From an uncultured Ruminococcus sp. (GTDB lineage Bacteria; Bacillota; Clostridia; Oscillospirales; CAG-272), in NCBI GenBank assembly GCA_902761695.1, contig CACWLT010000002.1:13210-61834 (forward strand): DNA of 48,625 nt, given 5' to 3'. Positions within the stretch are counted from its first letter, which is position 1. Each line of letters opens with the position of its first letter. A model generated the notes under the pieces. The model was given only the letters and a program-made list of their open reading frames with translations. It was not told the DNA's origin and did not search any database. Of the stretch, positions 2,742 through 28,250 are shown piece after piece. A program made the position numbers and the translations under genes.

Positions 2742-4007
2742 ATGAAAAACATCAACAGAAAGATTATCGTCTCCCTGATCGCCGGAGCCATGCTCCTCGC
2801 CTCCGCCACCGCCGTTTCGGCTGCCGCTGTAAACGGGTACGCCGCCCGGTCCTTCTCCGGAATGCAGAACCAGACGCAGACGGGCGGCTTCGCTGGCGGC
2901 ATGACGGCCTACACCGCCAAGACAAACGCGCTCTCCTACTCCGATCTCACCGGCGGCATCGTCACCTCCGACGAGCTCTTCTCCAAGCGGGATCTGAAGC
3001 AGACTGCGGATCTGGAGGAAGCGAAGAGCATTACCGCCGTGAGCGGAAAGACCGTCACCATCACCGAGGAAGGCGTCTACGTCCTCAGCGGCACGGCGGA
3101 AAACTTCACCGTGAAGATCGAGGCCGACAAGGAAGCCAAGATTCAGCTGGTGCTGGACGGCGTCAGCGTCACCAACAGCGATTTTCCTGTAATCTACGTG
3201 GTCTCGGCCGACAAGGTCTTCGTCACCACGACCGCGGGCAGTGAAAACGCCCTGTCCGTCACCGGAACCTTCAAAGCTGACGGCGAAACCAACACCGACG
3301 CCGTGATTTACTCGAAGGAAGACCTGGTTCTGAACGGCAAGGGCAGCCTCACCGTCACCTCCGCCAAGGGCAACGGCATCACGTCGAAGGACGATCTCAA
3401 GATCACGGGCGGCACGCTGAAGGTTACGGCACAGCTCGACGCGCTGGAGGCCAACGACTCCATCGTGATCTCCGACGGGGACATCACCGTCAATGCAAAG
3501 AAGGACGGCCTCCACGCGGAGAATGACGACGACGACAGCCTGGGCTATATCTGGATCGGCGGCGGGAAGCTGACCGTCACGGCATCCGACGACGCCGTCC
3601 ACGGCACCTCCTTCGTCCAGATCGACGGCGGCGAGATCACCGTCACCGGTTCGGAAGGCATCGAGGGCACCTACGTGCAGATCAACGGCGGCGAGATCAC
3701 GGTCACCGGCACGGACGACGGCCTCAACGGGGCCAACAAGAGCTCCGCTTACGAGACGGCCATTGAGATCGCGGGCGGCACGCTGAATGTGACCGTCGGT
3801 CAGGGCGACACGGACGCCATAGACTCCAACGGCAACCTCTACGTCACGGGCGGCACGGTCAATATCACCGCGCAGATGTCCTCCTTCGACTACGACGGCA
3901 CGGCGACCTGCACCGGCGGCACGATTATCGTCAACGGCCAGACCGTGAACAGCATCACCAGCTCGATGATGGGCGGCGGCATGGGCGGCTTCGGCGGACG
4001 GCGGTGA
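2742..4007 (+). CDS. Cthe_2159-type carbohydrate-binding beta-helix protein, secreted
   Basis: The chosen ATG at 2742 begins a Sec signal peptide (MKNINRKI, hydrophobic core, SAAA near residue 27). The frame remains open upstream to 2403, but that part overlaps the GH4 promoter region and has no signal. The mature protein of about 395 residues repeats the family pattern: VIYSKEDLVLNGKGSLTV, then GNGITSKDDLKITGGTL, then rungs such as GGEITVTG. These stack as a right-handed parallel beta-helix. The C-terminus ends in a Gly/Met/Arg tail (MMGGGMGGFGGRR). Members related to Clostridium thermocellum Cthe_2159 bind cellulose or pectin-like polymers and are exported. A -10 element TATAAT lies at 2658-2663 with no strong -35. 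A lipoprotein paralogue lies at 6343. Confidence 0.85.
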   Translation: MKNINRKIIVSLIAGAMLLASATAVSAAAVNGYAARSFSGMQNQTQTGGFAGGMTAYTAKTNALSYSDLTGGIVTSDELFSKRDLKQTADLEEAKSITAVSGKTVTITEEGVYVLSGTAENFTVKIEADKEAKIQLVLDGVSVTNSDFPVIYVVSADKVFVTTTAGSENALSVTGTFKADGETNTDAVIYSKEDLVLNGKGSLTVTSAKGNGITSKDDLKITGGTLKVTAQLDALEANDSIVISDGDITVNAKKDGLHAENDDDDSLGYIWIGGGKLTVTASDDAVHGTSFVQIDGGEITVTGSEGIEGTYVQINGGEITVTGTDDGLNGANKSSAYETAIEIAGGTLNVTVGQGDTDAIDSNGNLYVTGGTVNITAQMSSFDYDGTATCTGGTIIVNGQTVNSITSSMMGGGMGGFGGRR

Positions 4008-4173
4008 GGAAAAGAACCGTCTGGGAGCCAGCCCTGCGAGGCAGAATGATCGGAACAGCTTATACGGGACCGGCGCGCTTCTCCTGCTTTCGGGGGAGGA
4101 CGCGGCGGTCCTTTTCCGTTTTCACCAATGTTTTGCCGGGGATGGGGAGGAATATTTGTTTCAGAAAAATCAA

Positions 4174-4221
4174 AAGGTACCTTGATAAATCGGCGGCAGG
4201 GTGGTATAATCAAGGTACCTT
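4174..4221 (+). promoter_or_regulatory. Promoter with paired palindromic operators ahead of marR
   Basis: TTGATA (4182-4187) and TATAAT (4205-4210) are 17 bases apart. The perfect palindrome AAGGTACCTT occurs twice, at 4174-4183 overlapping the -35 and at 4212-4221 just downstream of the -10. Extended, the two sites are inverted copies sharing ATCAAGGTACCTT. Their placement would block RNA polymerase and matches MarR-type autoregulation by the gene starting 24 bases further on. Confidence 0.8.
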
Positions 4222-4245
4222 AAGATAATAAGACGGAGGAGTACT

Positions 4246-5136
4246 ATGGAATTCACGGAAAACAAGAAAACCTGTCCCGGATGCGGGAGACACTGCGAAC
4301 TGAGCGAGCCCGGCTGCGAAAGAGGAAGTGTATATGCCGAAACCGGCGCGCTGCCGGAGAGGGAGCACCGGGACCATCCCGAAGACCTTGGCGCGGAGGG
4401 CGGTCCCCGTCACGAATCCCGGCGCGGCTTCCGGGAGCGTCACGGCAATCCCGGGCGCGGCTTCGGACACGGTCCGGAACGTCCGGGCGAAGAGAATCCC
4501 GAAGAGAATCCCGGACGGCATCCCGAATGGGGGAACGCGATGGAGGCCGGAGAGGGGATCGGACGCGGTCCCGGGCGCGATTTCGGTCACGATCCCGAAC
4601 ACGGACGCGGTCCCGGAAGAGGACACGGACGGCGGGCGTTTCCGGGAGACGGCGATCCTGCGGAAGGAGGCGGTCCCCGAGGCCGTCACGGAGGAGAACG
4701 CTTCGAGATTCCGGAGGACGGGGACGGCAGGCTGGCCTTCATGCTCCGTTCCGTCGGCCGCATGATGCGCATGCGGTTTGACGAGCGGGAGGGGCAGCGC
4801 CGGATCCTGGTCATGCTGAACGACGGTCCCCTCACCCAGCGGGATCTGACGGAGCGGCTGGGGATTCAGCCCGGTTCCGCCAGCGAGATCGTCAGCAAGC
4901 TGGAGGGCAGCGGACTTATCACCCGCACCCCCAATCCCCGGGACCGCCGGACCATGGATGTTCAGCTGACGGAGAGCGGCCGGGAGGAAGCGGTCCGGGC
5001 CGAGGCGGAACGGCGCGAACGGCGTGCGGAGCTGTTCTCCTGCCTGAGCGAGGAGGAAAAAACCACGCTGACCGGCCTTCTGGAGAAGCTCCGGGAGTCC
5101 TGGGAAGGAACGGGAAACGGCGGGAATCCGCAATAA
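4246..5136 (+). CDS. MarR-family regulator with Cys- and Gly/Arg/His/Glu-rich N-terminal extension
   Basis: The C-terminal half (residues about 160-285) is a MarR winged helix: RILVMLNDGPLTQRDLTERL, then a recognition helix around QPGSASEIVSKLEGSGL, then a wing with PRDRRTMDV. Usual MarR proteins are about 140-170 residues; this one has 296. Residues 10-24 hold CPGCGRHC and a fourth Cys (Cys10, 13, 17, 24), a possible metal site. Residues about 30-150 are low complexity, rich in Gly, Arg, His, Glu and Pro. The start follows GGAGGA. The promoter carries two palindromes, so negative autoregulation is likely. It may also act on the neighbouring Cthe_2159 gene or the aldo/keto reductase, but no further operator copies were seen. 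Confidence 0.85.
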   Translation: MEFTENKKTCPGCGRHCELSEPGCERGSVYAETGALPEREHRDHPEDLGAEGGPRHESRRGFRERHGNPGRGFGHGPERPGEENPEENPGRHPEWGNAMEAGEGIGRGPGRDFGHDPEHGRGPGRGHGRRAFPGDGDPAEGGGPRGRHGGERFEIPEDGDGRLAFMLRSVGRMMRMRFDEREGQRRILVMLNDGPLTQRDLTERLGIQPGSASEIVSKLEGSGLITRTPNPRDRRTMDVQLTESGREEAVRAEAERRERRAELFSCLSEEEKTTLTGLLEKLRESWEGTGNGGNPQ

Positions 5137-5212
5137 GCACGGATCCCGCGACAAACAAAAGGCTGCCGCGTTTCTCCGGAGACGGAGATGAAGCATCAGT
5201 CCCATACAGCCG

Positions 5213-5252
5213 GAGCGGTCATGCGGTGAAGCATCGCGGGCCGCTCTTTTTT
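5213..5252 (+). terminator. Intrinsic terminator after marR
   Basis: GAGCGG (5213-5218) pairs with CCGCTC (5241-5246), with an inner ATGC/GCAT pairing, followed by six T. Confidence 0.75.
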
Positions 5253-5296
5253 CCGCGCGGGCGGGCTTTATGTAGATTTGTTCACACGCGGGATGG

Positions 5297-5302
5297 TATA
5301 AT
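5297..5302 (+). promoter_or_regulatory. -10 element ahead of the aldo/keto reductase
   Basis: TATAAT lies 59 bases upstream of the ATG. No convincing -35 is visible at the right spacing. Confidence 0.5.
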
Positions 5303-5360
5303 TGAATAAAGACATTGAAAATAAAAAACGGACAAAACGGTCCGGAAAGAGAGGCAGGCT

Positions 5361-6236
5361 ATGATCAGACGCGCGCTGGGCAGAACCGGATACGACATAT
5401 CCGCAGTGGTTTACGGCGGCATCGTCTCCATGAACGACGGACAGGAGAACTCCGACCGCTATGTGGCGTGGGCCGTGGAGCAGGGGGTGAACTACTTCGA
5501 CGTCGCGCCCTCCTACGGCGACGCGCAGGAAAAGCTGGGGAACTCCCTGATTCCCTGCCGGAAGGATATTTACCTGGCCTGCAAGACCGGGCAGAGGATG
5601 CGGCGGGAGGCGGAGGAGGAGATGAAGCGCTCCCTCACCATGCTTCACACCGACTATTTCGACGTCTATCAGATGCACGGGATCTCCTCCATGGAGGACG
5701 TGGACAGGGCGTTCGGACCCGGGGGCGTCATGGAGCTCATGCGGGAGATGAAGGAAAAGGGGATCGCCCGGAAAATCGGCATCACGGCCCACTCCGAGGA
5801 CGCGGCGCTGAAATGTCTGGAACTCTATGACTTCGACACGGTGCTCTTCCCCTTCAACTGGCACATGTTCATGGCCCACGGCATGGGGAAGCGGCTTCTG
5901 CAGACGGCGAAGGAACGGGGAATCGGCCTGCTCTGCATGAAGTCCATGATCGAGCGGGCCTGGATGGACGAGGCGGAAAAGCAGGCGTCGGGGTATCCGA
6001 AATCCTGGTGCAGGCCCTTTGACACCGGGACGCAGGCGGACCTTCTGACGGCGGCGGTGAAGTTCGCCTATTCTCTCGGAGTGGACGCCGTGGTCCCGCC
6101 CGGAAACTTCGACCACTTCTCCTTCGCGGTGAAGCACTGCGGGGAGATCCTGGCCCATCCCCTGGATGACATGGACCGGGCTCTGCTGGAGGCGCATCTG
6201 GAGAAGGTGAAGGATCACCCGTTCTTCGGGGTGTGA
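5361..6236 (+). CDS. Aldo/keto reductase
   Basis: This 291-residue protein is a single TIM-barrel reductase. It starts RRALGRTGYDISAVVYGG and keeps the catalytic tetrad in FDVAPSYGDAQEKLG (Asp and Tyr), YLACKTG (Lys) and VYQMHG (His). Such enzymes use NAD(P)H to reduce aldehydes, ketones or sugars in the cytosol. The substrate cannot be named from the sequence. GAGAGGCAGGCT precedes the ATG as a weak ribosome binding site. The gene stands alone between the marR terminator and the next promoter. Confidence 0.9.
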   Translation: MIRRALGRTGYDISAVVYGGIVSMNDGQENSDRYVAWAVEQGVNYFDVAPSYGDAQEKLGNSLIPCRKDIYLACKTGQRMRREAEEEMKRSLTMLHTDYFDVYQMHGISSMEDVDRAFGPGGVMELMREMKEKGIARKIGITAHSEDAALKCLELYDFDTVLFPFNWHMFMAHGMGKRLLQTAKERGIGLLCMKSMIERAWMDEAEKQASGYPKSWCRPFDTGTQADLLTAAVKFAYSLGVDAVVPPGNFDHFSFAVKHCGEILAHPLDDMDRALLEAHLEKVKDHPFFGV

Positions 6237-16630: not shown

Positions 16631-17215
16631 TTAAGCTTCGCTGTCTCTGATGATCTCCAGGGCGATCTCCCTGCGTGGGAGACAGCGGTCCATCGCCTGT
16701 TTTTCGATATACCGGTGCGCGGCGGCCTCGTCCATCGAGCGCGTCCGGATCAGCGCCCATTTGGCCCGGTTGACGAGGCGGATTTCCTCCATCTTTTCCT
16801 CCAGCGTGAGGGTCTTTCTCTCGGACATCCGCAGCCGTTCCCTGGCGCTCCGCATCCACGAGAGGGCGGTCGAGACGGTGTTTTTCGACACGGGCTTCGG
16901 GAGGACGAACACCCCGCGGCCGCCGAGCCTTTCGTCCGTTTCCGCGTAAAGCTCCGCCCGGACGAGGAAGAGGACGACGCATCCGCCCGACGACGAATCG
17001 ATGGCGAAGCGCGCGCCGCTGTCGTCCGGCAGGGGGGAATTGACGAGGATCAGGTCGAATTCCCGCTCCGCCGCCGCCCGTTTCGCCGCCGAGACGGATG
17101 TGACGCCCTGCACGGGGGAATAGCGTTCCTCCGTCAGCATGGAGCGGAGCGCGTCGTTCATCTGTCCCGGCGCGGACACGAGCAGAACGCCGTACGCGCG
17201 GCCTTCTTCAAGCAT
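16631..17215 (-). CDS. ANTAR-domain RNA-binding regulator with pseudo-receiver
   Basis: Residues 1-125 fold like a response-regulator receiver, but the phosphoacceptor position in DLILVNSPLPDD is Asn59 rather than Asp, while the conserved Lys (VLPKPV, Lys107) remains. Residues about 130-190 form the ANTAR three-helix domain (LEEKMEEIRLVNRAKWALI, then RYIEKQAMDRCLPRREIAL), which binds paired RNA hairpins and prevents transcription termination. ANTAR proteins beside glutamine synthetase genes are known in clostridia and control nitrogen genes by antitermination. It sits 40 bases downstream of the glutamine synthetase-like gene. Without a phosphorylation site its signal is probably protein or ligand binding. 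Candidate RNA targets lie in the gltB1 and glnN leaders. Confidence 0.88.
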   Translation of the reverse strand: MLEEGRAYGVLLVSAPGQMNDALRSMLTEERYSPVQGVTSVSAAKRAAAEREFDLILVNSPLPDDSGARFAIDSSSGGCVVLFLVRAELYAETDERLGGRGVFVLPKPVSKNTVSTALSWMRSARERLRMSERKTLTLEEKMEEIRLVNRAKWALIRTRSMDEAAAHRYIEKQAMDRCLPRREIALEIIRDSEA

Positions 17216-17255: not shown

Positions 17256-18428
17256 TCACTCCGCGCCGTAGGCCTTCCGCACGGACGGGGGCAGGCAGTC
17301 CCGGACGAAGCCGCTGTTTTTCGCTGAGGCTTTCGCCGCCGAAAGATCCCCGGGCAGCCGCGCTCCGCTTGCCGTGTTCCCCTCTGGCGGCAGAACGGCG
17401 CCTTTATAAAATCCCGCCAGTCCCGCGCGGATCAGCAGCGTCAGGGCGAGGTACGGGTTCGCGCCGGGATCCGGGGAACGCAGCTCGGCCCGGTTCTCCC
17501 CTTCCGGCATCCAGACAAGGCGGGCGCGATCCCTGCCGGACCACGCGATTCCGTTGTCCCGCCCCGCGAGCCGTCTATAGGAACTCTCCGTCGGATTGAG
17601 AAAGAGCGTCATGGCGCCGAGGTGGGAGAGGATTCCGGACGTGACTGCGGCGAGGGCCTGTTCCCCGGGGCACGCATCCTTCGCCGGCCGCACGGAATAG
17701 TTGATGTGGCATCCGTTCCCGGGCTCCCCGTCCAGGGGCTTGGGGGAGAAATCCGCCGCGAGGCCGTTGCGGTGCGCCACGGTGCGGACCACGGTCTGGA
17801 AGGTCATGGCGTTATCCGCGGCGGAGAGGGCATCGGAGAAATGAAAGTCGATTTTGTTCTGGCCCGGTCCCTCCTCATGGCAGGAGCTTTCCGGGCGGAT
17901 CCCCATCTGCTCGAGAGTCAGGCAGACCTCCCGCCGGATGTTCTCCCCCCGGTCCTCGGGCGCGATGTCCATGTAGCCCGCGCGGTCGTAGGGAATCCCC
18001 GTGGTCCTGCCGTCCTCGTCCGTGCGGAAGAGGTAGAAGGTCTGCTGGAGGCCGAAGAGGAAGGACAGTCCCGCCTCCTCCGCGTCCGCCGCCGCTTTTT
18101 TCAGAAGGCTCCGGGTATCGGCGGGATGGGGTGTGCCGTCGGGGAGAGCCGCCGCCGCGTACATTCTCACGACCCTCCCGTGCTCCGGACGCCAGGGCAG
18201 CACCGAAAGCGTCGCGGGGTCGGGGCGGAGCGTCAGGCTCGGCTCCCCCTCAAAACCGCAAACGGCGGAGGGATAAAAGGGTATCCCCCCGTCAAAGGCG
18301 CGCTCCAGCTCACCGGGCATGATGGAGATATTTTTCTGCCGTCCGAAAAGATCGCAGAAGGCCAGGCGGATGAACTTGACGTCCTCTTCACGGACGTATT
18401 CCATGACCTCGTCTTTGGTATAATTCAT
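17256..18428 (-). CDS. Glutamine synthetase-like protein lacking several metal ligands (probable pseudoenzyme)
   Basis: The fold is type I glutamine synthetase: N-terminal beta-grasp (RLAFCDLFGRQKN), MDIAPEDRGENIRREVCLTL, HINYSV (His241) and AELRSPDPGANPYLAL. It has 390 residues instead of about 440. Key acidic residues are replaced. The usual PExEFFLF becomes LQQTFYLF (Gln128 and Thr130 for two metal-binding Glu). The GQNE glutamate becomes Lys192. The flexible-loop glutamate (PGYEAPV) is missing in LAGRDNGIAWS, with three residues deleted. Catalysis is therefore unlikely. An intact type III synthetase exists at 24353. Adjacent to an ANTAR regulator, this protein may serve as a glutamine or ammonium sensor. 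CAGGAG precedes the ATG. Confidence 0.85.
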   Translation of the reverse strand: MNYTKDEVMEYVREEDVKFIRLAFCDLFGRQKNISIMPGELERAFDGGIPFYPSAVCGFEGEPSLTLRPDPATLSVLPWRPEHGRVVRMYAAAALPDGTPHPADTRSLLKKAAADAEEAGLSFLFGLQQTFYLFRTDEDGRTTGIPYDRAGYMDIAPEDRGENIRREVCLTLEQMGIRPESSCHEEGPGQNKIDFHFSDALSAADNAMTFQTVVRTVAHRNGLAADFSPKPLDGEPGNGCHINYSVRPAKDACPGEQALAAVTSGILSHLGAMTLFLNPTESSYRRLAGRDNGIAWSGRDRARLVWMPEGENRAELRSPDPGANPYLALTLLIRAGLAGFYKGAVLPPEGNTASGARLPGDLSAAKASAKNSGFVRDCLPPSVRKAYGAE

Positions 18429-18502
18429 GACAATACTCCTGAAATGCAGTGTATTCGCACTATGTAAGGAAGGAAACCCTGCGGATTTCCAATTAATCGT
18501 AT

Positions 18503-18767
18503 GTCCCTGCGCGGGACAGGCGGCACGAGGGACACCATCTCATGGCCGACTGAGTTCACGCTGTGAACTCGGGTGCCCACTCGTGCGGGTCCCCCTTGGC
18601 CGGGGAGCATAACTTATCCTCTCATCTCTGTATCTAAACTTGACAGTTCATCCCACGTCCTCGCCTGAAGAATGCTCTGCATTCTTCGGGAGTTGCTCCG
18701 CAACTCCGGCGGACCACGGTGCGTCAGCTGAAACATGCGTGAAATCCCATCGGAGATGGAATTTCAC
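18503..18767. repeat. Array of perfect or near-perfect palindromes in the intergenic gap
   Basis: The 518-base gap 18429-18946 has no gene. It holds five compact inverted repeats: 18503-18517 (GTCCC/GGGAC), 18552-18570 (GAGTTCAC/GTGAACTC), 18667-18687 (GAAGAATGC/GCATTCTTC), 18689-18707 (GGAGTTGC/GCAACTCC) and 18739-18767 (GTGAAATcCCAT/ATGGaATTTCAC). They could be a composite repetitive extragenic palindrome or the leader of the synthetase-like gene, since it is transcribed leftwards through here. No clear promoter was found; readthrough from gltB3 is possible. Confidence 0.65.
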
Positions 18768-18946
18768 GTGTTTCCCGCGCCGACGCAGTCGCGCAGGAGC
18801 CTCGCAAACAGCGATCGAAACGCGCATGACACGGGGCGCGATGGAGAATAGGCGGAGAATATAATTCATCCGCGCGAATTGGAGGGTATTCATTCGCTGG
18901 GAGGTGTTATCCTTTTGGTGGTGTTCCTTTTCTGCTCGTCCGCCCG

Positions 18947-19669
18947 TCAGTTTTCCACGTACATTCTGCGGTAGGGGTTGGCGGTGTCGGGGGTTATGAG
19001 GGTGAAGGGGGAAGAGAGGATGCTCTCCGCGTCCTTGGCGAAGAGGGCGGCGTAGGTTTCGATAATCGGGCGGACAGCCGTCATATCCTCCGGGGTCGCC
19101 TCTCTGGCGGTGACCTGGGGAGGGAAGGCGATATCCGTGCAGGAGCCGCGCAGCACCATCTTTCCGCCGTGCATGCCGGTACAGGGGAAGTCCCCCACGA
19201 TCCTGCGGCTGTCCTCGTGCAGGCCCAGCACCACGATGAGGCCGCCGGCCTGGTATTCGCCGAGAAAGCTGCCCGCGCACCCGCCGATGACGAGGACGGG
19301 GATTTTGTCCTTGTATTCCTTCATATGGATCCCGGCCCGGTAACCGGCGCTGTCCCGGACGTAGATTTCCCCGCCGCGCATGGCGTACCCGGCCGCGTCC
19401 CCGATGCTCCCATGGATCACGATCCGGCCGCCGTTCATGGTGTCGCCCACCGCGTCCTGCGCGCTGCCGTCCACCGTGATTTCCGCGCCGTTGAGGTAGG
19501 CGCCCAGGGCGTTGCCGGGGATCCCTCTGATTTCGATGCTGCCCCCGCTCATGCCCGCGCCGATGAACCGCTGGCCGAGGCATCCCGTGACCCGGACGGA
19601 TCCCCCCGCTCCCCGGATCGCCTCGTTCAGCTCCCGGTGGTCCAGCTCCTTTGCGTAAAGCGTCGTCAT
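18947..19669 (-). CDS. Glutamate synthase GXGXG (beta-helix) subunit, GltB3-type
   Basis: This 240-residue protein corresponds to the C-terminal alpha-subunit domain of bacterial glutamate synthase. It consists of repeated turns such as GAGMSGGSIEIRGIPGNALG, GAEITVDGSAQDAVGDTMNG and GGEIYVRDSAGYRAG. In split, archaeal-type enzymes it is a separate structural subunit that braces the synthase core. Its ATG overlaps the stop of the FAD reductase gene by four bases (ATGA), so translation is coupled. It is the last gene of the glt operon. Confidence 0.9.
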   Translation of the reverse strand: MTTLYAKELDHRELNEAIRGAGGSVRVTGCLGQRFIGAGMSGGSIEIRGIPGNALGAYLNGAEITVDGSAQDAVGDTMNGGRIVIHGSIGDAAGYAMRGGEIYVRDSAGYRAGIHMKEYKDKIPVLVIGGCAGSFLGEYQAGGLIVVLGLHEDSRRIVGDFPCTGMHGGKMVLRGSCTDIAFPPQVTAREATPEDMTAVRPIIETYAALFAKDAESILSSPFTLITPDTANPYRRMYVEN

Positions 19670-20904
19670 ACCGCACCTCCGAATTTTCTCCGCCGTTGTT
19701 CGCGCGAAAAGGCCGCCGTGGTCGCCGCGTGCCGCAGAAGCCCGAAATCGAGCGTATCGAGGGGGATCCTTTCCCGGATGAGGGAGGTATAGATCCCGGC
19801 CCGCTCCTCACAGCCGACGAGGGCAAAGCCGGTGAGGAACCCGTCCTTCGTCCAGAGCTTCTTCATCCACCCCGGTCCGCGCTCTTCAAAGACCGCGCAG
19901 CCCTCGGGAGCCGATCCCGCCGTCAGGCAGTGCAGGCCGAAGAAGCCGATGGCGTTGAGAGGGACGGCGTTGTCAAAGGTCCTGTCCCCGCCCGCCATAT
20001 TGATTCCGGCGCACTCCCCCTGAAGCCTTGCGTTCGGGAGGATGGCGAGCACGCGGTTTGCCCCGAGGGAGGAATCGTACCCTTCGGCGCAGTCCCCGGC
20101 GGCGTAAATATCCGGGACGCTTGTCCGCATGTGTCTGTCAACGATGATCCCGCGATTCACATCGCCGCCGATGTCCTTCACAAGGGCGGTGTTCGCCCGC
20201 ACGCCCACCGCCAGGACGAGGATGTCAAAATCCATCGTCTTTCCGCTTTTCATGACGGCGCGGTTCCCCTCAAACCGATCCGCCGTGTCGCCGGGCAGGA
20301 AGGAGATTCCGTGCTCCTCCAGCCTTGCCCGCATCAGGGCCGCGCCTTCCTCGTCGAGGATGCTGGAGAGGATCCGGGGAGCCAGATCGCAGACCGTGAG
20401 GGAACCCGCGCGTTCCGCCAGTCCCTCCGCGCATTTCAGCCCGATCAGCCCCGCGCCGACGATGAGCACGCGGCTGTTCTCCGTGACCGCGGCGTCCAGG
20501 GCGAGCATGTCGTCCATGGTCATGAAGGAGAACTTTCGCGCCACCGTGTCCAGCCCCGCCATGGGAGGGACGAAGGGGGAGGATCCCGCCGCGACGCAGA
20601 GCTTCGTGTAGGGCAGGCACGCGCCTTCGTTCAGTGTCACGGATTTTTTATCGGGATCGATCCCGACGGCTTTTGTACCGAACAGGACTCTGCATCCGTT
20701 TTTCTCATAGAAATCCGCCGGACGCTGGTTCATGTTCCCGGGATCCGCCTTCCCTTCAAGCGCGCAGGAGATGAGCGGGCGGCAGTAGGCGGGGTATTTT
20801 TCGGCGGAGATCACGGTGACCGGCGATTCCGTGTCAAGGGAGCGGATCCCCTCGATGCAGGAGACCGCCGCCGTCCCGTTGCCGATGATGACGTAGTTTT
20901 CCAT
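19666..20904 (-). CDS. FAD/NAD(P)-dependent oxidoreductase of the glutamate synthase operon
   Basis: The 412-residue protein is a two-dinucleotide-binding pyridine nucleotide reductase. The N-terminal FAD motif is VIIGNGTAAVSCIEGIR, the NAD motif is VLIVGAGLIGLKCAEGLAER (about residues 137-156), and the second FAD motif is DIYAAGDCAEG. It resembles NADH-rubredoxin and nitrite reductase-type flavoproteins and probably feeds electrons from NAD(P)H through the adjacent ferredoxin to the GltB2 core. The start at 20904 follows GAGGAGAGG and lies four bases after the ferredoxin stop. Confidence 0.88.
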   Translation of the reverse strand: MENYVIIGNGTAAVSCIEGIRSLDTESPVTVISAEKYPAYCRPLISCALEGKADPGNMNQRPADFYEKNGCRVLFGTKAVGIDPDKKSVTLNEGACLPYTKLCVAAGSSPFVPPMAGLDTVARKFSFMTMDDMLALDAAVTENSRVLIVGAGLIGLKCAEGLAERAGSLTVCDLAPRILSSILDEEGAALMRARLEEHGISFLPGDTADRFEGNRAVMKSGKTMDFDILVLAVGVRANTALVKDIGGDVNRGIIVDRHMRTSVPDIYAAGDCAEGYDSSLGANRVLAILPNARLQGECAGINMAGGDRTFDNAVPLNAIGFFGLHCLTAGSAPEGCAVFEERGPGWMKKLWTKDGFLTGFALVGCEERAGIYTSLIRERIPLDTLDFGLLRHAATTAAFSREQRRRKFGGAV

Positions 20905-20908
20905 GGCC

Positions 20909-21340
20909 TTACCTCTCCTCATAGACGATGGCGCGGTTCGGACAGCCCTTCACGCACGCCGGTTCTCCGGACGCGTTTGAAAGGCACAGCTCGCATTTCT
21001 GCATCACGCCGTCCTCCGCCGGAGCGAGCGCGCCGTAGGGACAGACGAGGACGCAGGTGAAGCAGCCCACGCAGCGGGTTTTTTCGATCCGGATCACCCC
21101 GTCCTCCCCCTGCGAGAGAGCTCCGGCGATGCAGGCCTTCACGCAGAGAGGGTCGTCGCAGTGGCGGCAGGATACGGCGTAGGTCACCCGCTCGTCCCCT
21201 TCGATATGGATGCGCGGGAAGATCGGCTTCCCCCGGAGCGCGGACGCCATGTCGGACCCGCCGGAATTGGCGAAGGCGCAGTTGTATTCGCAGAGATGGC
21301 AGCCGAGGCACCACTCTTCGTTGACGTAAACTCTTTTCAT
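20909..21340 (-). CDS. Four-cluster [4Fe-4S] ferredoxin (HycB/HydN-like)
   Basis: In 143 residues there are four cysteine groups: CLGCHLCEYNC, CRHCDDPLCVKAC, CVGCFTCVLVC and CELCLSNASGEPACVKGC. This is the 16-Cys pattern of proteins carrying four [4Fe-4S] clusters that wire redox subunits together. Located three bases after gltB2 and four before the FAD reductase, it is the likely electron bridge in the split glutamate synthase. Confidence 0.92.
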   Translation of the reverse strand: MKRVYVNEEWCLGCHLCEYNCAFANSGGSDMASALRGKPIFPRIHIEGDERVTYAVSCRHCDDPLCVKACIAGALSQGEDGVIRIEKTRCVGCFTCVLVCPYGALAPAEDGVMQKCELCLSNASGEPACVKGCPNRAIVYEER

Positions 21341-21343
21341 CCT

Positions 21344-22849
21344 TCATTCCCCCGCGTGGGCGATGCCTAAAATCTCCAGCTCCTTCTCCGTCATCCCGAC
21401 GCCGCGGAGCATGAGCCGGTTGCCGCGCAGCGCTTCGATCGAATTGATCCCCATGCCGCCGAGCAGCTCCATGATTTCGTGCCGCCAGGCCGTCATGAGG
21501 TTGACGAGGCGTTCGGAGCCCACGTCCGGGTTGAGCCGCTTCACAAGCTCCGGCCTCTGCGTCGCGATGCCCCAGCTGCACCGCCCGGTCTGGCAGGTGC
21601 GGCAGAGATGACAGCCCAGCGCCAGGAGGGCTGCCGTGGCGATATAGCACGCGTCCGCTCCGAGAGCGACGGCCTTCACCACGTCTGCGGCGGAACGGAT
21701 GCTGCCCCCGACCACCAGGGATACGTCTCCCCGGATCCCCTCGTCCCTGAGACGTCTGTCCACGGATGCCAGGGCAAGCTCGATGGGGATCCCCACGTTG
21801 TCCCGGATCCTTGTGGGAGCCGCGCCCGTGCCGCCCCGGAAGCCGTCGATGGCGATGATGTCCGCGCCGGACCGGGCGATCCCCGAGGCGATGGCGGCGA
21901 TGTTGTGGACGGCGGCGACCTTGACGATCACCGGCTTTTTGTATTCCGTCGCTTCCTTGAGGGAGAGGACGAGCTGGCGGAGATCCTCGATGGAATATAT
22001 ATCGTGATGCGGAGCCGGGGAGATGGCGTCGGAGCCCTCGGGGATCATGCGCGTCCGGCTGACGTCCCCCACGATCTTCGCTCCGGGCAGGTGTCCGCCG
22101 ATCCCCGGCTTCGCGCCCTGGCCCATCTTGATCTCGATGGCCGCGCCCGCCCGCAGGTAGTCCTCGTGGACCCCGAACCGCCCGGACGCCACCTGCACCA
22201 CGGTGTTCGGCCCGTATTTGTAAAAATCCTCGTGAAGCCCGCCCTCGCCGGTGTTGTAGAGAATGCCCAGCTTCTCCGCCGCTCTCGCGAGGGAGGCGTG
22301 GGCGTTGTAGGAGATGGATCCGTAGCTCATGGCGGAGAACATCACGGGCATGGACAGCGCGATCTGCGGCGGGAGGCTTGTGTCAAGGGTTCCGTCCGGT
22401 TTTCTTCTGATTTTGTCCGGCTTCTTTCCGAGGAAGACCCGGGTCTCCATGGGCTCTCTGAGCGGGTCGATGGGGGGATTGGTGACCTGGGAAGCGCCTA
22501 CGAGCATCCTGTCCCAGTACACCGGCAGCGGATTCGGGTTGCCCATGGACGAGAGCAGCACCCCGCCCGAGGACGCCTGCTTGTAGATTTCCCCAATGGC
22601 GGTGCCCTGCCAGTTGGCGTTCTCCCGGAAGGCGTTCGGGTTCTTCACGATCTTCAGCGCCCTTGTGGGACAGAGGGAGACGCACCGCTGGCAGTCCACG
22701 CACCTCGTTTCGTCCGAGAGCATGATCCCGCGCTCCTCATCGAACCGGTGCACCTCGTTGGCGCACTGTCGCTCGCACACACGGCAGGCGATGCAGCGGG
22801 CTTCATTGCGCTGAACCTCAAATTCCGGCTGTACATACGCGATTGCCAT
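21344..22849 (-). CDS. Glutamate synthase FMN/Fe-S core subunit, GltB2-type
   Basis: Residues about 10-75 carry two [4Fe-4S] motifs (CIACRVCERQC and CVDCQRCVSLC). Residues about 90-470 form the FMN TIM barrel that reduces 2-oxoglutarate plus ammonia to glutamate, with PVMFSAMSYGSIS, NTGEGGLHEDFYKYG, QGAKPGIGGHLPG, IDGFRGGTGAAPT and the 3Fe-4S ligand segment CHLCRTCQTGRC. Length is 501 residues. The start at 22849 follows AAGGGGGG and shares one base with the gltB1 stop (TAATG), so the two are coupled. A longer frame upstream is only antisense readthrough of gltB1. Confidence 0.92.
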   Translation of the reverse strand: MAIAYVQPEFEVQRNEARCIACRVCERQCANEVHRFDEERGIMLSDETRCVDCQRCVSLCPTRALKIVKNPNAFRENANWQGTAIGEIYKQASSGGVLLSSMGNPNPLPVYWDRMLVGASQVTNPPIDPLREPMETRVFLGKKPDKIRRKPDGTLDTSLPPQIALSMPVMFSAMSYGSISYNAHASLARAAEKLGILYNTGEGGLHEDFYKYGPNTVVQVASGRFGVHEDYLRAGAAIEIKMGQGAKPGIGGHLPGAKIVGDVSRTRMIPEGSDAISPAPHHDIYSIEDLRQLVLSLKEATEYKKPVIVKVAAVHNIAAIASGIARSGADIIAIDGFRGGTGAAPTRIRDNVGIPIELALASVDRRLRDEGIRGDVSLVVGGSIRSAADVVKAVALGADACYIATAALLALGCHLCRTCQTGRCSWGIATQRPELVKRLNPDVGSERLVNLMTAWRHEIMELLGGMGINSIEALRGNRLMLRGVGMTEKELEILGIAHAGE

Positions 22850-23949
22850 TACCGATTCCCCCCTTCCGTCCTTGCCGTCACGACGACGGGTTCTCCGCCC
22901 GCCGGATACCGGATGTTCCCGGCCTCGGGATCCATGGCCCGGATGGCGGCCTCTTCGCTGGCGATATACACCCGGGAGCCGTGCTCGCCCACCACCATGG
23001 ACCGCAGCTTCAGCCTGTCGTTCAGCGCCATGAGCCCCCCGTTGAAGCCGAGGATGATGGAGAAAGGCCCGGTGACGAGCAGGGAGGGGAAGAGCGTGCG
23101 GAGACAGGTGAGCTTTTCCCGCTTCTCCGGATCCTCCTCCGCCTCGATGGACGACCAGAACGGAGCCGCGGTCACCGACGCCGCCTCTTCGAGCGTCAGG
23201 CCCTGCCGCCGGAGCAGATAGTCCATGATGTAGGTGATGACCTCGGTGTCGGTCTGGAGAGTGCATTTGTAGCCGAACATCTCGATCCACCGGCGGTTGG
23301 CGTCGTAGGAGGAGATCTCCCCGTTGTGGACCACGGACCAGTCCAGCAGGGTGAAGGGATGCGCGCCGCCCCACCAGCCGGGGGTGTTCGTAGGATACCG
23401 CCCGTGCGCCGTCCACGCGTACCCGGCGTATTCCTCCAGCCGGTAGAACTCCGCCACGTCCTCGGGATAGCCCACGGCCTTGAAAGCGCCCATGTTCTTC
23501 CCCGACGAGAAGACGTACCCGCCCCGCCGCTCCGTATTGATCTTCATCACCGTGCGCACGACGAATTCACGCTCGTCCACCTGCTCCGCCGCGAGCCGTG
23601 ATTTCAGCGGATCGACGAAATACCGCCAGATCACCGGCTCGTCCGTGACGGCGGGGATCTTCCTTGTGGGGACGAGCTCACTCTTTACGATCTCGAACCG
23701 TTCCTTTAAATAGACCTCGCAGTCCTTGCGCGCCGCCCGGTCCTCGAAAAAGAAATGCAGGGCGTAAAAATCACGGTATTCCGGATAGATCCCGTAGCCG
23801 GCGAATCCCCCGCCCAGGCCGTTGGAGCGCTCGTGCATGGGGCGCATGGCCTCGGCCGTGAGGTTCCCGGGGATCATCCCGCCGTCCCGGTCGATCACGG
23901 CGGCGATGGCGCAGCCCGATGGGATCCTGACCTCTCCTTCCATTTTCAT
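22849..23949 (-). CDS. Glutamate synthase glutaminase subunit, GltB1-type
   Basis: This 366-residue class II glutamine amidotransferase releases ammonia from glutamine for the GltB2 core. The internal nucleophile Cys is in RIPSGCAIAAVIDRDGG (about residue 13), as in other stand-alone GltB1 proteins that retain a short N-terminal peptide. AWTAHGRYPTNTPGWWGGAHPF and DWSVVHNGEISSY form the glutamine pocket. The start at 23949 follows GGAGGAAGACC; the in-frame extension to 24012 lies within the attenuator hairpin. First gene of the leftward convoy. Confidence 0.92.
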   Translation of the reverse strand: MKMEGEVRIPSGCAIAAVIDRDGGMIPGNLTAEAMRPMHERSNGLGGGFAGYGIYPEYRDFYALHFFFEDRAARKDCEVYLKERFEIVKSELVPTRKIPAVTDEPVIWRYFVDPLKSRLAAEQVDEREFVVRTVMKINTERRGGYVFSSGKNMGAFKAVGYPEDVAEFYRLEEYAGYAWTAHGRYPTNTPGWWGGAHPFTLLDWSVVHNGEISSYDANRRWIEMFGYKCTLQTDTEVITYIMDYLLRRQGLTLEEAASVTAAPFWSSIEAEEDPEKREKLTCLRTLFPSLLVTGPFSIILGFNGGLMALNDRLKLRSMVVGEHGSRVYIASEEAAIRAMDPEAGNIRYPAGGEPVVVTARTEGGNR

Positions 23950-23960
23950 GGTCTTCCTCC

Positions 23961-24008
23961 GAAAAAGAAAACGCGCCCATCCCGAAAAACCGGAATGAAC
24001 GCCTTTGC
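23961..24008 (-). terminator. Attenuator-like hairpin in the gltB1 leader
   Basis: On the minus strand, GCAAAGG is followed by CGTTCATTCCG, a GTTTTT loop and CGGGATGGGCG (11 bp including G-U pairs), then CGTTTTCTTTTTC. The T tract runs straight into the gltB1 ribosome binding site (GGAGGAAG). Termination here would switch the operon off. The glnN leader has a matching element, so joint control is likely. Confidence 0.75.
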
Positions 24009-24020
24009 TCATTTGTCCGT

Positions 24021-24049
24021 ATTATACGGGATTCCGCCGGAGTTGTCAA
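24021..24049 (-). promoter_or_regulatory. Consensus promoter of the glt operon
   Basis: TTGACA (24044-24049), 17 bases, TATAAT (24021-24026) on the minus strand. Transcription should start near 24014, leaving a leader of about 65 bases that is almost entirely the attenuator hairpin. Confidence 0.92.
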
Positions 24050-24130: not shown

Positions 24131-24159
24131 TTGACAGGACGGAAAAAGCGGAGTATAAT
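24131..24159 (+). promoter_or_regulatory. Consensus promoter of the glnN-amt-asnB-purF-carAB convoy
   Basis: TTGACA (24131-24136), 17 bases, TATAAT (24154-24159). It lies 82 bases from the divergent glt promoter and is equally perfect, which suggests that control is exerted after initiation. Confidence 0.92.
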
Positions 24160-24169
24160 ACCGCCATGG

Positions 24170-24313
24170 AAGGCAAAGGCGTCTTCGCGGATCGGTTTCG
24201 CGGAGGCGTTTTCCTTTTTTACCATGATACAGTGGATCGGCAAAATCACATATTTATACAATAAAGGCAAAGGCGTCTTTATCCGGGGAATCCGGAGAGG
24301 TGTCTTTGCCTTT
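24170..24313 (+). promoter_or_regulatory. Tandem attenuator hairpins in the glnN leader
   Basis: Hairpin A: GCAAAGG, then CGTCTTCGCG (24180-24189), a nine-base loop, CGCGGAGGCG (24199-24208), then TTTTCC and six T, like an intrinsic terminator. Hairpin B: AAAGGCAAAG (24263-24272) pairs with CTTTGCCTTT (24304-24313), with further GCGTCT/AGGTGT and TCCGG/CCGGA pairing, followed by TCTC. The 16-mer AAGGCAAAGGCGTCTT is repeated exactly at 24170-24185 and 24264-24279, so the 3' arm of B could also pair with the 5' arm of A and prevent its terminator. The leader also contains an ATG frame of about 30 codons from 24166, probably incidental. Confidence 0.75.
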
Positions 24314-24352
24314 CTCACATTTCAGGGCCTTACGGGGCAGGAGGATTTCACA

Positions 24353-26452
24353 ATGGCGGCAAACGTGCAGGAAACATTCGGCAGCATGGTGTTCGACGAC
24401 AGAGTCATGAAGGCGCATCTCCCGGCAAAGGTCTACGCGTCCCTCAGAAAGACCATCGACGAGGGCGCGGAGCTGGACGTGGCCGTGGCCAACGCGGTGG
24501 CAGACGCCATGAAGGAATGGGCCGTCTCAAAGGGCGCGACCCACTTCACCCACTGGTTCCAGCCGCTCACCGGCATCACGGCGGAAAAGCACGATTCCTT
24601 CATCTCCCCGGCTCCGGACGGCGGCGTCCTCATGGAGTTTTCCGGAAAGGAGCTCATCAAGGGCGAGCCGGACGCCTCCTCCTTCCCCTCGGGCGGACTG
24701 CGGGCCACCTTCGAGGCCAGGGGCTACACCGCGTGGGATCCGACCTCCTACGCCTTCATCAAGGGAAAGACCCTCTGCATCCCCACGGCCTTCTGCTCCT
24801 ACGGCGGGCACGCGCTGGACAAGAAGACGCCCCTGCTCCGCTCCATGGAGGCCATCAACCGGCAGGCGCTGCGCATTCTCCGGCTCTTCGGAAATACGGA
24901 CGTCAAGCGCGTCACTACCTCGGTGGGACCGGAACAGGAGTATTTCCTCATCGACCGGAAGCTCTACGAGAAACGGCCCGATCTGCGCTTCACCGGCCGG
25001 ACCCTCTTCGGCGCGAAGCCTCCCAAGGGCCAGGAGATGGACGACCACTACTTCGGCGTCATCAAGCCCCGCGTCGCCGCCTACATGGAGGAGCTGAACG
25101 AGGAGCTCTGGAAGCTGGGGATCCTCGCCAAGACGGAGCACAACGAGGTGGCCCCTGCCCAGCACGAGCTGGCTCCGATCTATACCACCACCAACGTTGC
25201 CACGGATCACAACCAGCTCACCATGGAGATCATGCAGAAGGTGGCGGCGAAGCACGGGCTGGTCTGCCTGCTCCACGAAAAGCCCTTCGCAGGGGTCAAC
25301 GGCTCCGGCAAGCACAACAACTGGTCCATCGCGACGGACACGGGGGTCAACCTCCTCTCCCCGGGCGAGACGCCCTATGAAAACGCGCAGTTCTTAACCT
25401 TCCTCTGCGCCGTGATCCAGGCCGTGGACGACTACGCCGACCTCCTCAGGATCTCCGTGGCGACCGCCGGCAACGACCACAGACTGGGCGCCAACGAGGC
25501 CCCGCCCGCCGTGGTGTCCATGTTCCTCGGGGACGAGCTGACCGCCATCCTTGACGCCATCGAGGCGGACAGGCCCTACAGCGCGGCGGAGAAGACCGTC
25601 ATGAAGCTGGGCGCGGACGTGCTCCCCCAGTTCCGCCGGGACGCCACGGACCGCAACCGCACCTCCCCCTTCGCCTTCACCGGCAACAAGTTCGAGTTCC
25701 GGATGCTGGGCTCCTCCAACTCCATCGCCTGCGCCAACATCATGCTCAACGCCGCCGTAGCCGAGAGCCTGAGACAGTACGCGGACCGGCTGGAGGCGGC
25801 GGACGATTTCGAGGCGGCCCTGCACGACCTGATCCGGGACGTGGTGGCCGCCCACAAGCGGATCCTCTTCAACGGCAACGGCTACGACGACGCGTGGATC
25901 AAAGAGGCGACGGAGGTCCGCGGCCTGCCCAACTACCGCACCACCCCCGACTGCTTCCCGGAGCTTCTGTCCGAGAAGAACGTCACGATGCTGACCTCCC
26001 ACGGCGTCTTCACCCCGGCGGAGCTGAAATCCCGGTACGAGATTATGCTGGAGAACTACTGCAAGACCGTGCTGATCGAGGCGAACACCATGATCGACAT
26101 GGCGAAGCGGCAGATCCTCCCGGCGGTTGCCTCGTATGCCGCTGCCCTTTCCTCCGACATCGCGGCGAAGCGGTCCGTCTCCGAGCCCCTGTCCTGCCGG
26201 TACGAGGTCCGCACCGCCGCAGCCCTGTCCCGTCTCGCGGATTCCATCGCGGACCGGGTGGACGAGCTGGAGACGGCGGCGGACAAAGCGCGGAAGATCG
26301 GGGAGATCGGTCCCCAGTCCTTCGCCATCCGGGACCACGTTCTCGGCGGCATGACGGCTCTGCGCGGCCTATGTGACGAGGCTGAGACGATCACCGCCGC
26401 GGAATACTGGCCGTTCCCGACCTACGGGGAGCTGCTGTTCGGCGTGAACTGA
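24353..26452 (+). CDS. glnN: Glutamine synthetase type III
   Basis: This makes glutamine from glutamate, ammonia and ATP as a large dodecamer. The 699-residue length, the N-terminal GSIII domain ([21 protein letters not shown]), the catalytic core ([53 protein letters not shown]) and the helical C-terminus are all typical of type III enzymes of anaerobes. The metal-binding Glu residues missing from the protein at 17256 are present here. The start at 24353 follows AGGAGG. The frame is open further upstream through the leader, but that part only reads the hairpins. It is the first gene of the rightward convoy. Confidence 0.95.
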
Positions 26453-26534
26453 CAAGCGTCTGTTCATGACTGCGGGGCTGTACAAAATCCTGCGCGCTGC
26501 TGTCCCCGCCATTACCCTGAAAGGGAGTACCACC

Positions 26535-28250
26535 ATGACTTACTCATCCGTCAACACCATCTGGGTCCTGCTCGGCGCGGCCCTCGTCTTCTTCATGCAG
26601 GCCGGATTTTCCATGTGCGAGGCCGGCTTCACCCGTGCCAAGAATACCGGAAACATCCTCATGAAGAACCTCATGGATTTCTGCATCGGAACCCCGGCGT
26701 TCTGGCTCGTGGGTTTCGGGATCATGTTCGGCTCGGGCACGGCCCTCTTCGGGCGCATCGATCCCTTCATCCTGGGAGACTACAGCCATATCCTCCCGGC
26801 GGGCGTTCCGCTCTGGGCGTTCGCCATTTTCCAGACCGTCTTCTGCGCCACCTCCGCGACCATCGTGTCCGGGGCCATGGCGGAGCGGACGAAGTTCTCG
26901 GCGTACTGCATCTATTCCCTCTGCATCTCCCTCTTCATCTATCCCGTCTCCGGCCACTGGATCTGGGGCGGCGGCTGGCTCTCCGCGCTGGGGTTCCACG
27001 ATTTCGCGGGCTCGACCTGCGTGCACATGGTGGGCGGGGTCTGCGCGTGCATCGGCGCGGCGATCCTTGGTCCCCGCATCGGCAAGTACGGACGGGACGG
27101 CAAGCCGAAGGCGATCCTCGGCCACAATCTGACGGCGGCGGCGCTGGGGGTGTTCATTCTCTGGTTCTGCTGGTTCGGCTTCAACGGCGCGTCCACCGTG
27201 GGCATGGATTCCGACGAGCTGGTGGTCTCCGCCGGACTGGTCTTCTTCAACACCAACCTCTGCGCGGCCGTCGCCTGCTGCACCACCCTGATCACCACGT
27301 GGATCCGCTACAAAAAGCCCGACGTCTCCATGACCTACAACGCGGCGCTGGCGGGTCTGGTGGGGATCACGGCGGGATGCGACGCGGTCTCTCCGGCAGG
27401 AGCGGCGGTGATGGGCCTCTGTTTCGGCTTTGTCATTGTCTTCTCCGTGGAGTTTTTCGACAAGGTGGCGAAGATCGACGATCCCGTCGGGGCGATCTCC
27501 GTTCACGGGATCTGCGGCGCGCTGGGCACGATCCTCACGGGCTTCTTCGCCACGGGCGTTTCCACCGAGAAGGGCGTCTTCTACGGCGGCGGGTTCCGTT
27601 TCCTCGGCGTGCAGGCCCTCGGCGTCGTGACCGTGGCGGCGTATGTGGCCCTCGTCATTACGATTGTTTTCTTCATCCTCAAAAAGACCGTCGGGCTCCG
27701 GGCCGATCCCGCGGACGAGATACAGGGACTGGACGTCTCGGAGCACGGGCTGCTGACCGCCTACGCCGGATTTGCCATGTCCCCCGACACCGCGAGCATG
27801 GAAAGCGATTCCGCGCCCGTTGTCGTGACCGGAGACGCCCCGCCCGCCGAGGCCGTGACCGTGAAGCGCGTTCCCTCGTTCGAGGAAGGGACGCCGAAGT
27901 TCACCAAGGTCGAAATCATCTGCAAGGAGAGCCGCTTTGAAGCGCTGAAAAACGCCATGACCGACCTCGGCATCACGGGCATGACCGTCTCCCACGTCCT
28001 CGGCTGCGGACAGCAGAAGGGACGGACGGAATACTACCGGGGCATTGCGGTAGAGGCGACGCTTCTGCCGAAGGTGCAGGTGGACATCGTCGTATCGAAG
28101 ATCCCGGTCCGCTCCGTGATCGAGACGGCGAAGAAGGTCCTTTACACCGGCCACATCGGCGACGGCAAGATCTTCGTTTACGACGTGGAGAACATCGTGA
28201 AGGTCCGGACCGGCGAGGAAGGCTACGACGCCCTGCAGGACGTGGAATAA
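26535..28250 (+). CDS. Ammonium transporter fused to a PII signal domain
   Basis: Residues 1-415 form an Amt channel with eleven membrane segments (VLLGAALVFFMQAGFSMCEAG at the start, and pore residues around GGVCACIGA, ILWFCWFGFNGAS, VHGICGALG). A 40-residue linker rich in Ala, Pro and Val leads to a complete PII domain (residues 455-571) with KVEIICKESRFEALKNAM, the T-loop signature GCGQQKGRTEYYRG and LLPKVQVDIVV, including the conserved Tyr. PII normally plugs Amt as a separate protein; the fusion makes the regulator permanent. Start at 26535 after AAAGGGAG. The next gene, asnB, follows after 12 bases. Confidence 0.95.
   Translation: MTYSSVNTIWVLLGAALVFFMQAGFSMCEAGFTRAKNTGNILMKNLMDFCIGTPAFWLVGFGIMFGSGTALFGRIDPFILGDYSHILPAGVPLWAFAIFQTVFCATSATIVSGAMAERTKFSAYCIYSLCISLFIYPVSGHWIWGGGWLSALGFHDFAGSTCVHMVGGVCACIGAAILGPRIGKYGRDGKPKAILGHNLTAAALGVFILWFCWFGFNGASTVGMDSDELVVSAGLVFFNTNLCAAVACCTTLITTWIRYKKPDVSMTYNAALAGLVGITAGCDAVSPAGAAVMGLCFGFVIVFSVEFFDKVAKIDDPVGAISVHGICGALGTILTGFFATGVSTEKGVFYGGGFRFLGVQALGVVTVAAYVALVITIVFFILKKTVGLRADPADEIQGLDVSEHGLLTAYAGFAMSPDTASMESDSAPVVVTGDAPPAEAVTVKRVPSFEEGTPKFTKVEIICKESRFEALKNAMTDLGITGMTVSHVLGCGQQKGRTEYYRGIAVEATLLPKVQVDIVVSKIPVRSVIETAKKVLYTGHIGDGKIFVYDVENIVKVRTGEEGYDALQDVE

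Follow-up and report, generated by a model that had tools for sequence, protein, structure and literature searches.

A glutamine synthetase-like protein lacking several catalytic glutamates as a candidate nitrogen sensor for an ANTAR antiterminator in an uncultured Ruminococcus species

Two-gene control, in which a cytoplasmic sensor of a small molecule holds an ANTAR antiterminator, is represented by AmiC-AmiR of Pseudomonas aeruginosa and NasS-NasT of Paracoccus denitrificans; AmiC is related to transport-type binding proteins. The same kinship is reported for NasS, whose loss makes nas expression constitutive (PMC3795266). Here we describe a pair of adjacent genes of comparable layout in a stretch of 48,625 nucleotides from an uncultured Ruminococcus sp. 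(contig CACWLT010000002.1, positions 13,210 to 61,834; the whole stretch analysed is referred to as the window), in which a gene for a glutamine synthetase (GS)-like protein at 17256-18428 lies beside a gene for an ANTAR protein at 16631-17215. The likeness to the two described pairs extends to the receiver-like domain of the ANTAR protein, from which the phosphorylatable Asp is absent, to the adjoining position of the two genes, and to a hexaloop (A at position 1, G at position 4) that overlaps a terminator in the putative target leaders. The difference lies in the sensor candidate, which has the fold of GS, is not a relative of the solute-binding proteins, and has glutamine as its proposed ligand.

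In Clostridium saccharobutylicum the gene for the ANTAR protein NitR presumably adjoins glnA, and the GS beside it is taken as an enzyme. NitR is reported to antiterminate the GS and glutamate synthase (GOGAT) genes on nitrogen limitation (PMC6316151), which resembles the role proposed here except that the partner GS in the window has lost catalytic residues. Signalling by a GS to a gene regulator, as we propose, is also described in Bacillus and its relatives, in which feedback-inhibited GS passes the glutamine signal to TnrA and GlnR; in the B. subtilis-type enzyme the flap Glu contacts the bound glutamine, the E flap and the C-terminal thong helices contact GlnR, and the thongs join the two rings of canonical GS (PMC9249791). 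That GS is an active enzyme with a DNA-binding partner, whereas the protein described here is missing catalytic residues, the flap Glu and the C-terminal tail, and its adjacent partner is an ANTAR protein, of an RNA-binding type, and not TnrA or GlnR (no search for these two elsewhere in the genome was made). The ANTAR targets described by Ramesh et al. (2012; PMC3369931), whose loops characteristically begin with A and have G in fourth place, likewise overlap terminators and precede nitrogen genes, but their motif has two stem-loops where we find a single hexaloop for each terminator. The pair in the window differs from the known ANTAR sensor pairs in the origin of its sensor and, apparently, in this single hexaloop.

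The reading that we favour, at a probability of roughly 0.6, is that a retired GS senses nitrogen in the cytoplasm on behalf of an ANTAR antiterminator controlling both a type III GS (GSIII) and the glutamate synthase operon; the pair is best read as working in the manner of AmiC-AmiR or NasS-NasT with a sensor of GS origin. Among the titles and the beginnings of abstracts in the open-licence PMC literature, outside which the subscription journals lie, we found no description of a GS pseudoenzyme as the partner of an ANTAR protein.

Active site and conservation of the glutamine synthetase-like protein

The frame at 17256-18428 (minus strand) encodes 390 amino acids from an ATG start with no internal stops, and its product has both the N-terminal beta-grasp domain of GS (Gln-synt_N, PF03951, 45.6 bits) and the catalytic domain (Gln-synt_C, PF00120, 203.8 bits), each match exceeding its Pfam cut-off. 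A confident AlphaFold model (pLDDT 94.7, pTM 0.94) shows the type I GS fold, and Foldseek listed 50 PDB chains, every one of them a GS (TM-scores on the query of 0.89-0.94). Frame and fold are thus as intact as an earlier note on this DNA, made from its letters alone, had stated. The GlnA equivalog model of NCBIfam gives 230 bits, below its cut-off of 429.15, so that by this model the protein falls outside type I GlnA.

Alignment also bears out the loss of active-site glutamates that the earlier note had read from the sequence. We take the metal ligands of type I GS to be E132, E134, E189, E196, H245 and E333 in B. subtilis numbering, of which E132, E134 and E196 are lost here. The PExEFFLF motif has become GLQQTFYLF, with Q128, Q129 and T130 (18039-18047, minus strand) in place of the ExE ligands, and GQ(H/N)E has become GQNK, with K192 (17853-17855, minus strand) in place of the third n1 ligand; three of the six ligands are replaced by Q, T and K, and E185, H241 and E315 are kept. 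The E flap, PG(Y/F)EAP in type I GS, reads AGRDNG and is without the catalytic Glu, although it is shortened and not, as had been suggested, deleted outright; together with the kept amino-acid-site Arg, R286, it occupies 17547-17573 (minus strand). The protein ends before the C-terminal tail that is seen in two of the GS compared (L178 and L183), and this tail is absent throughout the window clade and from the short relatives compared. What is shared with type I GlnA is the fold, the beta-grasp domain and the residues of the amino-acid pocket; what is missing is three of six metal ligands, the flap Glu and the tail, and on these features the protein falls outside the active type I enzymes.

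The amino-acid pocket appears to be conserved where metal ligands have been lost, since R286, R317, G237, G239, D26, D148, Y152 and W296 are invariant in all 21 metal-lost rows of the family alignment (19 distinct proteins), and H241 is kept in 20 of them. R286 and R317 are presumably the counterparts of the arginines that hold the substrate glutamate in GS structures.

Seven different proteins from this genus share the same Q, T and K, namely the window protein and L005, L006, L007, L008, L009 and L010, which are 67-86% identical to it (L034 and L035 are second copies of L009 and L010, and L006 runs off a contig end). Over 21 pairs of this window clade dN/dS is 0.138-0.297, and the codons for Thr130 and Lys192 differ synonymously within it. 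Chance or sequencing error can be dismissed because seven proteins share the replacements while their codons vary silently, and the shared residues together with the low dN/dS indicate that the replacements are fixed and that purifying selection holds the protein, as the earlier note had supposed in preferring selection to decay. Recent decay was accordingly rejected. We consider it very improbable that the protein is an active-site relic on its way to being lost: the absence of several catalytic residues and the presence of two GSIII genes in the genome speak for it, but the seven distinct frames are open (L006 as far as its contig end), dN/dS is 0.14-0.30, the replacement residues are identical, and both the pocket residues and the ANTAR partner are conserved. 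Same-genus relatives beside ANTAR genes (L013, L020, L023 and L024) keep all metal glutamates and are without the flap Glu, which is in keeping with stepwise conversion and not with recent decay; homologues with the full set of glutamates in the same neighbourhood, to which the earlier note had looked as a pointer to such decay, are confined to more distant ANTAR-paired relatives such as L032 and L033.

The ANTAR partner and the clostridial family

The claim that the neighbour is an ANTAR pseudo-receiver holds good. The protein encoded at 16631-17215 (minus strand), the proposed antiterminator, matches the ANTAR domain (PF03861) with 54.3 bits and Response_reg with 23.6 bits, below the cut-off of 30.2, and has Asn at the phospho-Asp position. 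Its profile matches in the PDB are 1s8n, 6wsh, 1qo0 and 4akk, and its structure model resembles Rv1626, EutV and AmiR (1qo0, TM-score 0.59-0.60). In 173 of the 178 other loci a hidden Markov model (HMM) detected an ANTAR gene on the same strand as the GS gene and no more than 376 bases downstream of it. The five misses comprise three loci at contig ends (L006, L058 and L125, within 102 bases), one with an ANTAR frame (L160) and one with a partial gene (L065); all 175 other loci with room for it carry ANTAR after GS, full-length in 174. At L065 only the C-terminal ANTAR domain remains (3498-3653), the receiver being missing through deletion or an assembly fault. Of 174 ANTAR rows, 154 have Asn in the phospho-Asp column and nine have Asp; the 20 partners of metal-lost GS that were available all have Asn.

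The distances among GS proteins correlate with those among ANTAR proteins at 0.82-0.90, and with those of three glutamate synthase subunits at 0.16-0.75 (101, 62 and 49 loci; the values are descriptive and uncorrected for kinship). They bear on an unlikely alternative, that the pseudoenzyme regulates an enzyme by contact, for example by joining GSIII or the split glutamate synthase as a subunit or by inhibiting either. In many loci the GS-like gene does belong to the glutamate synthase operon and stand opposite GSIII, and hetero-oligomers are conceivable because GS proteins form large oligomers. The closer correlation is nevertheless with ANTAR, albeit by a small gap for the class II glutamine amidotransferase (GAT) subunit (0.816 versus 0.754), and ANTAR adjoins GS where no glutamate synthase gene precedes it, as in L043, L050, L064, L070, L076, L090 and L094.

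We compared 171 distinct GS proteins, drawn from the relatives, from a scan of species genomes (432 loci confirmed, of which 80 were kept) and from a class-wide draw, which gave a match at E ≤ 1e-60 in 191 of 391 genomes and of which 70 loci were read, the 30 best and 40 others picked by hand, and so non-randomly, to span the list. Eight proteins present twice among the rows were counted once; two GSIII rows (L002 and L003) and L085, whose frame was broken on extraction and is followed by ANTAR, were dropped, and the window itself (L001 and L004) was left out of family and locus counts. The flap Glu is absent in 139 of the 171, with Lys its commonest replacement, at least one metal ligand is absent in 19, and 28 keep the flap Glu and all metal ligands; the remaining pattern, loss of the flap Glu alone with six intact ligands, is seen in 124. 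The window protein appears from these comparisons to be the extreme of a large clostridial family. One genome of the genus (G018) carries both a window-type GS-like gene (C9:20399-21451) and a second match with 46% identity (C83:3162-4355).

A tree of 75 family members and six outgroup GS, built without the active-site columns, requires five changes of flap state and nine of metal state, one of the latter being a conservative Glu-to-Asp change in a control (L193). Metal losses fall in the window clade, L149/L152/L158, L165/L168/L170, L167, L171, L121/L123, L027 and L031, suggesting loss in about eight lineages, which is only an estimate because the tree was made by a quick method and 37 of its 78 inner branches are drawn open. 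The recurrence of the same kinds of change beside ANTAR genes, proposed by the earlier note as a check, is thus seen in repeated flap and metal losses. Among 20 type I GS without an ANTAR match within the fetched 2.5-4.2 kb, from the same order (474-549 amino acids; 34-40% identity to L183), the flap Glu is present in all 20 and the full set of metal ligands in 19, but this control is weak because the 20 form a distinct type I group and are mostly close to one another. The pairing with ANTAR is older than the active-site losses, because the 28 complete GS are paired with it as well.

The many proteins that have lost only the flap Glu raise a second possibility, to which we give little credence, that the wider family, mostly flap-Lys and metal-intact, catalyses a different reaction, as a gamma-glutamyl ligase for another amine or as a slow GS. 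All six metal ligands remain in 124 of the 171 proteins, and GS-like ligases for other amines are described (PMC5403932, PMC6529630). The window clade is ill-suited to such a role, however, with one of three n1 ligands left and K192 in the site, metal ligands have been lost in several ANTAR-paired lineages, and none of the operon genes seen suggests an amine substrate.

Leader RNAs and the proposed switch

Two divergent promoter-like sites of the form TTGACA-17-TATAAT, each with 12 of 12 consensus letters, lie at 24021-24049 (minus strand, glutamate synthase operon) and 24131-24159 (plus strand, GSIII). Each directly precedes a hairpin with an AAAGGC loop, which has A1 and G4, and which shares bases with a terminator-like hairpin. 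In the leader of the glutamate synthase/GS-like/ANTAR operon (23943-24014, minus strand) the hexaloop hairpin AUGAGC[AAAGGC]GUUCAU overlaps an intrinsic terminator and scores 54.7 bits with the covariance model R1. The GSIII leader has two hairpins on the plus strand, of which the first, GAAGGC[AAAGGC]GUCUUC (24169-24222), was found by hairpin and terminator scans and overlaps a terminator, and the second, AUAAAGGC[AAAGGC]GUCUUUAU (24261-24315), was found by the hairpin scan and overlaps a strong hairpin that the terminator scan did not call.

These elements recur across loci. A hexaloop hairpin with up to three mismatches is present in 48 of 49 glutamate synthase leaders, including that of the window, and the missing one (L091) is matched by R1. 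Hexaloop hairpins are likewise found in the GSIII leaders of 34 of 35 divergent loci, the exception being the Clostridium thermocellum locus (L144); they number 65, against 0.2 expected from shuffles, scan and shuffles alike requiring AANGRN loops. In the leader alignment (A2) the hexaloop stem is paired in 99.7% of 288 cells and the terminator stem has two-sided changes in 13 of 20 pairs; only leaders with up to three mismatches to a 16-mer were admitted to it, and the loop conservation is partly by construction. In 63 loci no glutamate synthase gene was found within 1.5 kb upstream; 12 of these have a hexaloop within 300 bases before GS, where 0.46 would be expected, and they include L007, a member of the window clade, L050 with two copies and the complete GS L182 (of the 12, L142 duplicates L025 and L178 belongs to a different type).

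The segment at 23997-24009 has 11 of 13 letters of the motif of Ramesh et al. (2012; PMC3369931), but the 13-mer alone is no evidence, because with two mismatches allowed it has 12 matches in the window, one of them the leader hairpin, where 20.45 are expected. Rfam holds no family for the glutamate synthase or GSIII leaders. In the window's own genome R1 finds the window leader (54.7 bits) and then nothing convincing (23.9 and 23.5 bits); since both hairpins of the window's GSIII leader escape it, it does not map the whole regulon. Across six other genomes the best match in each is strong, and further matches include one of 40.3 bits in G300 (C58) and weaker ones. Minus-strand R1 matches lying on top of plus-strand ones were discarded as the palindrome read backwards.

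In the mechanism that we infer, the GS-like protein would have retained its fold and its pocket for glutamate or glutamine while having lost the ability to run the ATP-dependent reaction. When glutamine is plentiful the protein would bind it and hold the ANTAR protein through direct contact with its phosphorylation-incompetent receiver, and when glutamine falls it would release it. The freed ANTAR dimer would then attach to the leader hexaloops of both GSIII and the glutamate synthase/GS-like/ANTAR operon and block the overlapping terminators, so that both transcripts would be switched on. The earlier note's proposal of a sensor binding glutamine, ATP or the regulator agrees with the selection on the gene, the recurrence of the losses, the conserved pocket and the leader RNAs, but ATP is the less likely ligand in the window protein because its metal ligands are gone.

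Operon context and wider significance

Upstream of the GS-like gene on the minus strand, Pfam matches identify the subunits of a split glutamate synthase: a GXGXG subunit (18947-19669), a pyridine nucleotide-disulphide oxidoreductase subunit (19666-20922), a 4Fe-4S protein (20909-21340), the FMN/Fe-S subunit (21344-22978) and GAT (22849-23949). The last probably starts at Met22 of the frame 22849-24012, because the first ATG (24012) falls inside the leader hairpin; automatic gene calls in this GAT family may start inside the leader. The 506-base gap between the GXGXG and GS-like genes (18435-18940) corresponds to a dispersed repeat with 61 matches in its own genome, including that of the window, and looks like an insertion inside the operon because in a sister species (L005) the two frames are only about 16 bases apart. 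On the opposite strand, from 24353 to 26452, lies the GSIII that the earlier note had placed in this cluster, identified by sequence match, 699 amino acids long and probably the working enzyme. It is followed by an ammonium transporter fused to a P-II domain (26466-28250), and then by asparagine synthase, a class II amidotransferase and carbamoyl phosphate synthase subunits. After the ANTAR gene purC, guaA and pyrG were recognised by eye, and in the window-type relative L034 the leader motif is followed by a purA-like frame (3976-5364, also by eye), the GS-like gene, ANTAR and guaA; the circuit may extend to nucleotide genes whose products use glutamine.

The window genome, which is 82.9% complete, has two GSIII genes, and each of the 31 genomes checked that have this GS type carries at least one other GS-family gene, mostly a type III frame of about 700 amino acids. 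In contrast, one genome (G234) has as its sole GS an ANTAR-family match that scores like a canonical GS, a likeness of score only.

Clostridium thermocellum offers the closest view of physiology. Its sole type I GS, encoded by glnA (Clo1313_2031), is described as having the ANTAR gene 2030 on one side and the glutamate synthase genes 2032-2036 on the other (PMC4676874, PMC9888227), and in our alignment its counterpart in genome G402 (L144), probably strain ATCC 27405 to judge by its cohesins and GS inventory, has Arg for the flap Glu and intact metal ligands. Cells from which glnA was deleted are reported, at second hand, to respond as if starved of nitrogen although their glutamine and alpha-ketoglutarate are raised (PMC10967112), and in a comparison of strains the GS mutant grew to the greatest turbidity (PMC5887222). 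The deletion phenotype is easier to explain if a sensor that keeps an antiterminator in check was lost than if an enzyme that makes glutamine was lost, and the deregulation recalls the constitutive expression that follows loss of NasS.

Several observations weigh against the sensor that we propose. Pairing with ANTAR does not in itself require loss of catalysis, as the 28 complete GS indicate, and the 124 proteins that have lost only the flap Glu may retain activity. With neither the flap Glu nor the C-terminal thongs, the GS-like protein would have to contact ANTAR in a new way. Covariation in the hexaloop stem is weak, with two-sided change in one of six pairs, a result equalled by 154 of 500 shuffles. 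For 51 of the 63 GS genes outside a glutamate synthase operon there is no hexaloop in the preceding 300 bases, although some of these sit inside other operons, as does L034, whose leader is further upstream. The paired hexaloop (P1-P2) of described ANTAR targets was not found, each terminator having one; scans for dual hexaloops, under over-strict stem and GC rules, gave one of 52 leaders (0.4 expected; an over-long segment) and none of 49. Finally, Clo1313_2031 is placed among the GS genes without differential transcription, although the same source says that the cluster 2030-2036 behaves alike (PMC4676874).

Nitrogen sensing in many Clostridia is poorly understood. It is, in our judgement, an even call whether type I GS has in this class repeatedly been turned from an enzyme into a glutamine receptor for an RNA-binding antiterminator, such that ANTAR-paired GS, including the C. 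thermocellum glnA product, serves mainly for sensing, the enzymatic work falls to GSIII, and the direct switch formed by GS, ANTAR and leader plays the role that TnrA and GlnR have in Bacillus. If so, many annotated glutamine synthetases of gut, rumen and industrial Clostridia would be receptors and not enzymes, metabolic models that use such genes would need correction, and the raised glutamine and derepression of nitrogen genes that follow deletion of glnA in C. thermocellum would have a simple cause. The family would then form a naturally occurring gradation, with active enzymes at one end, impaired ones in between and pure sensors at the other, and the far end would have been reached separately several times.
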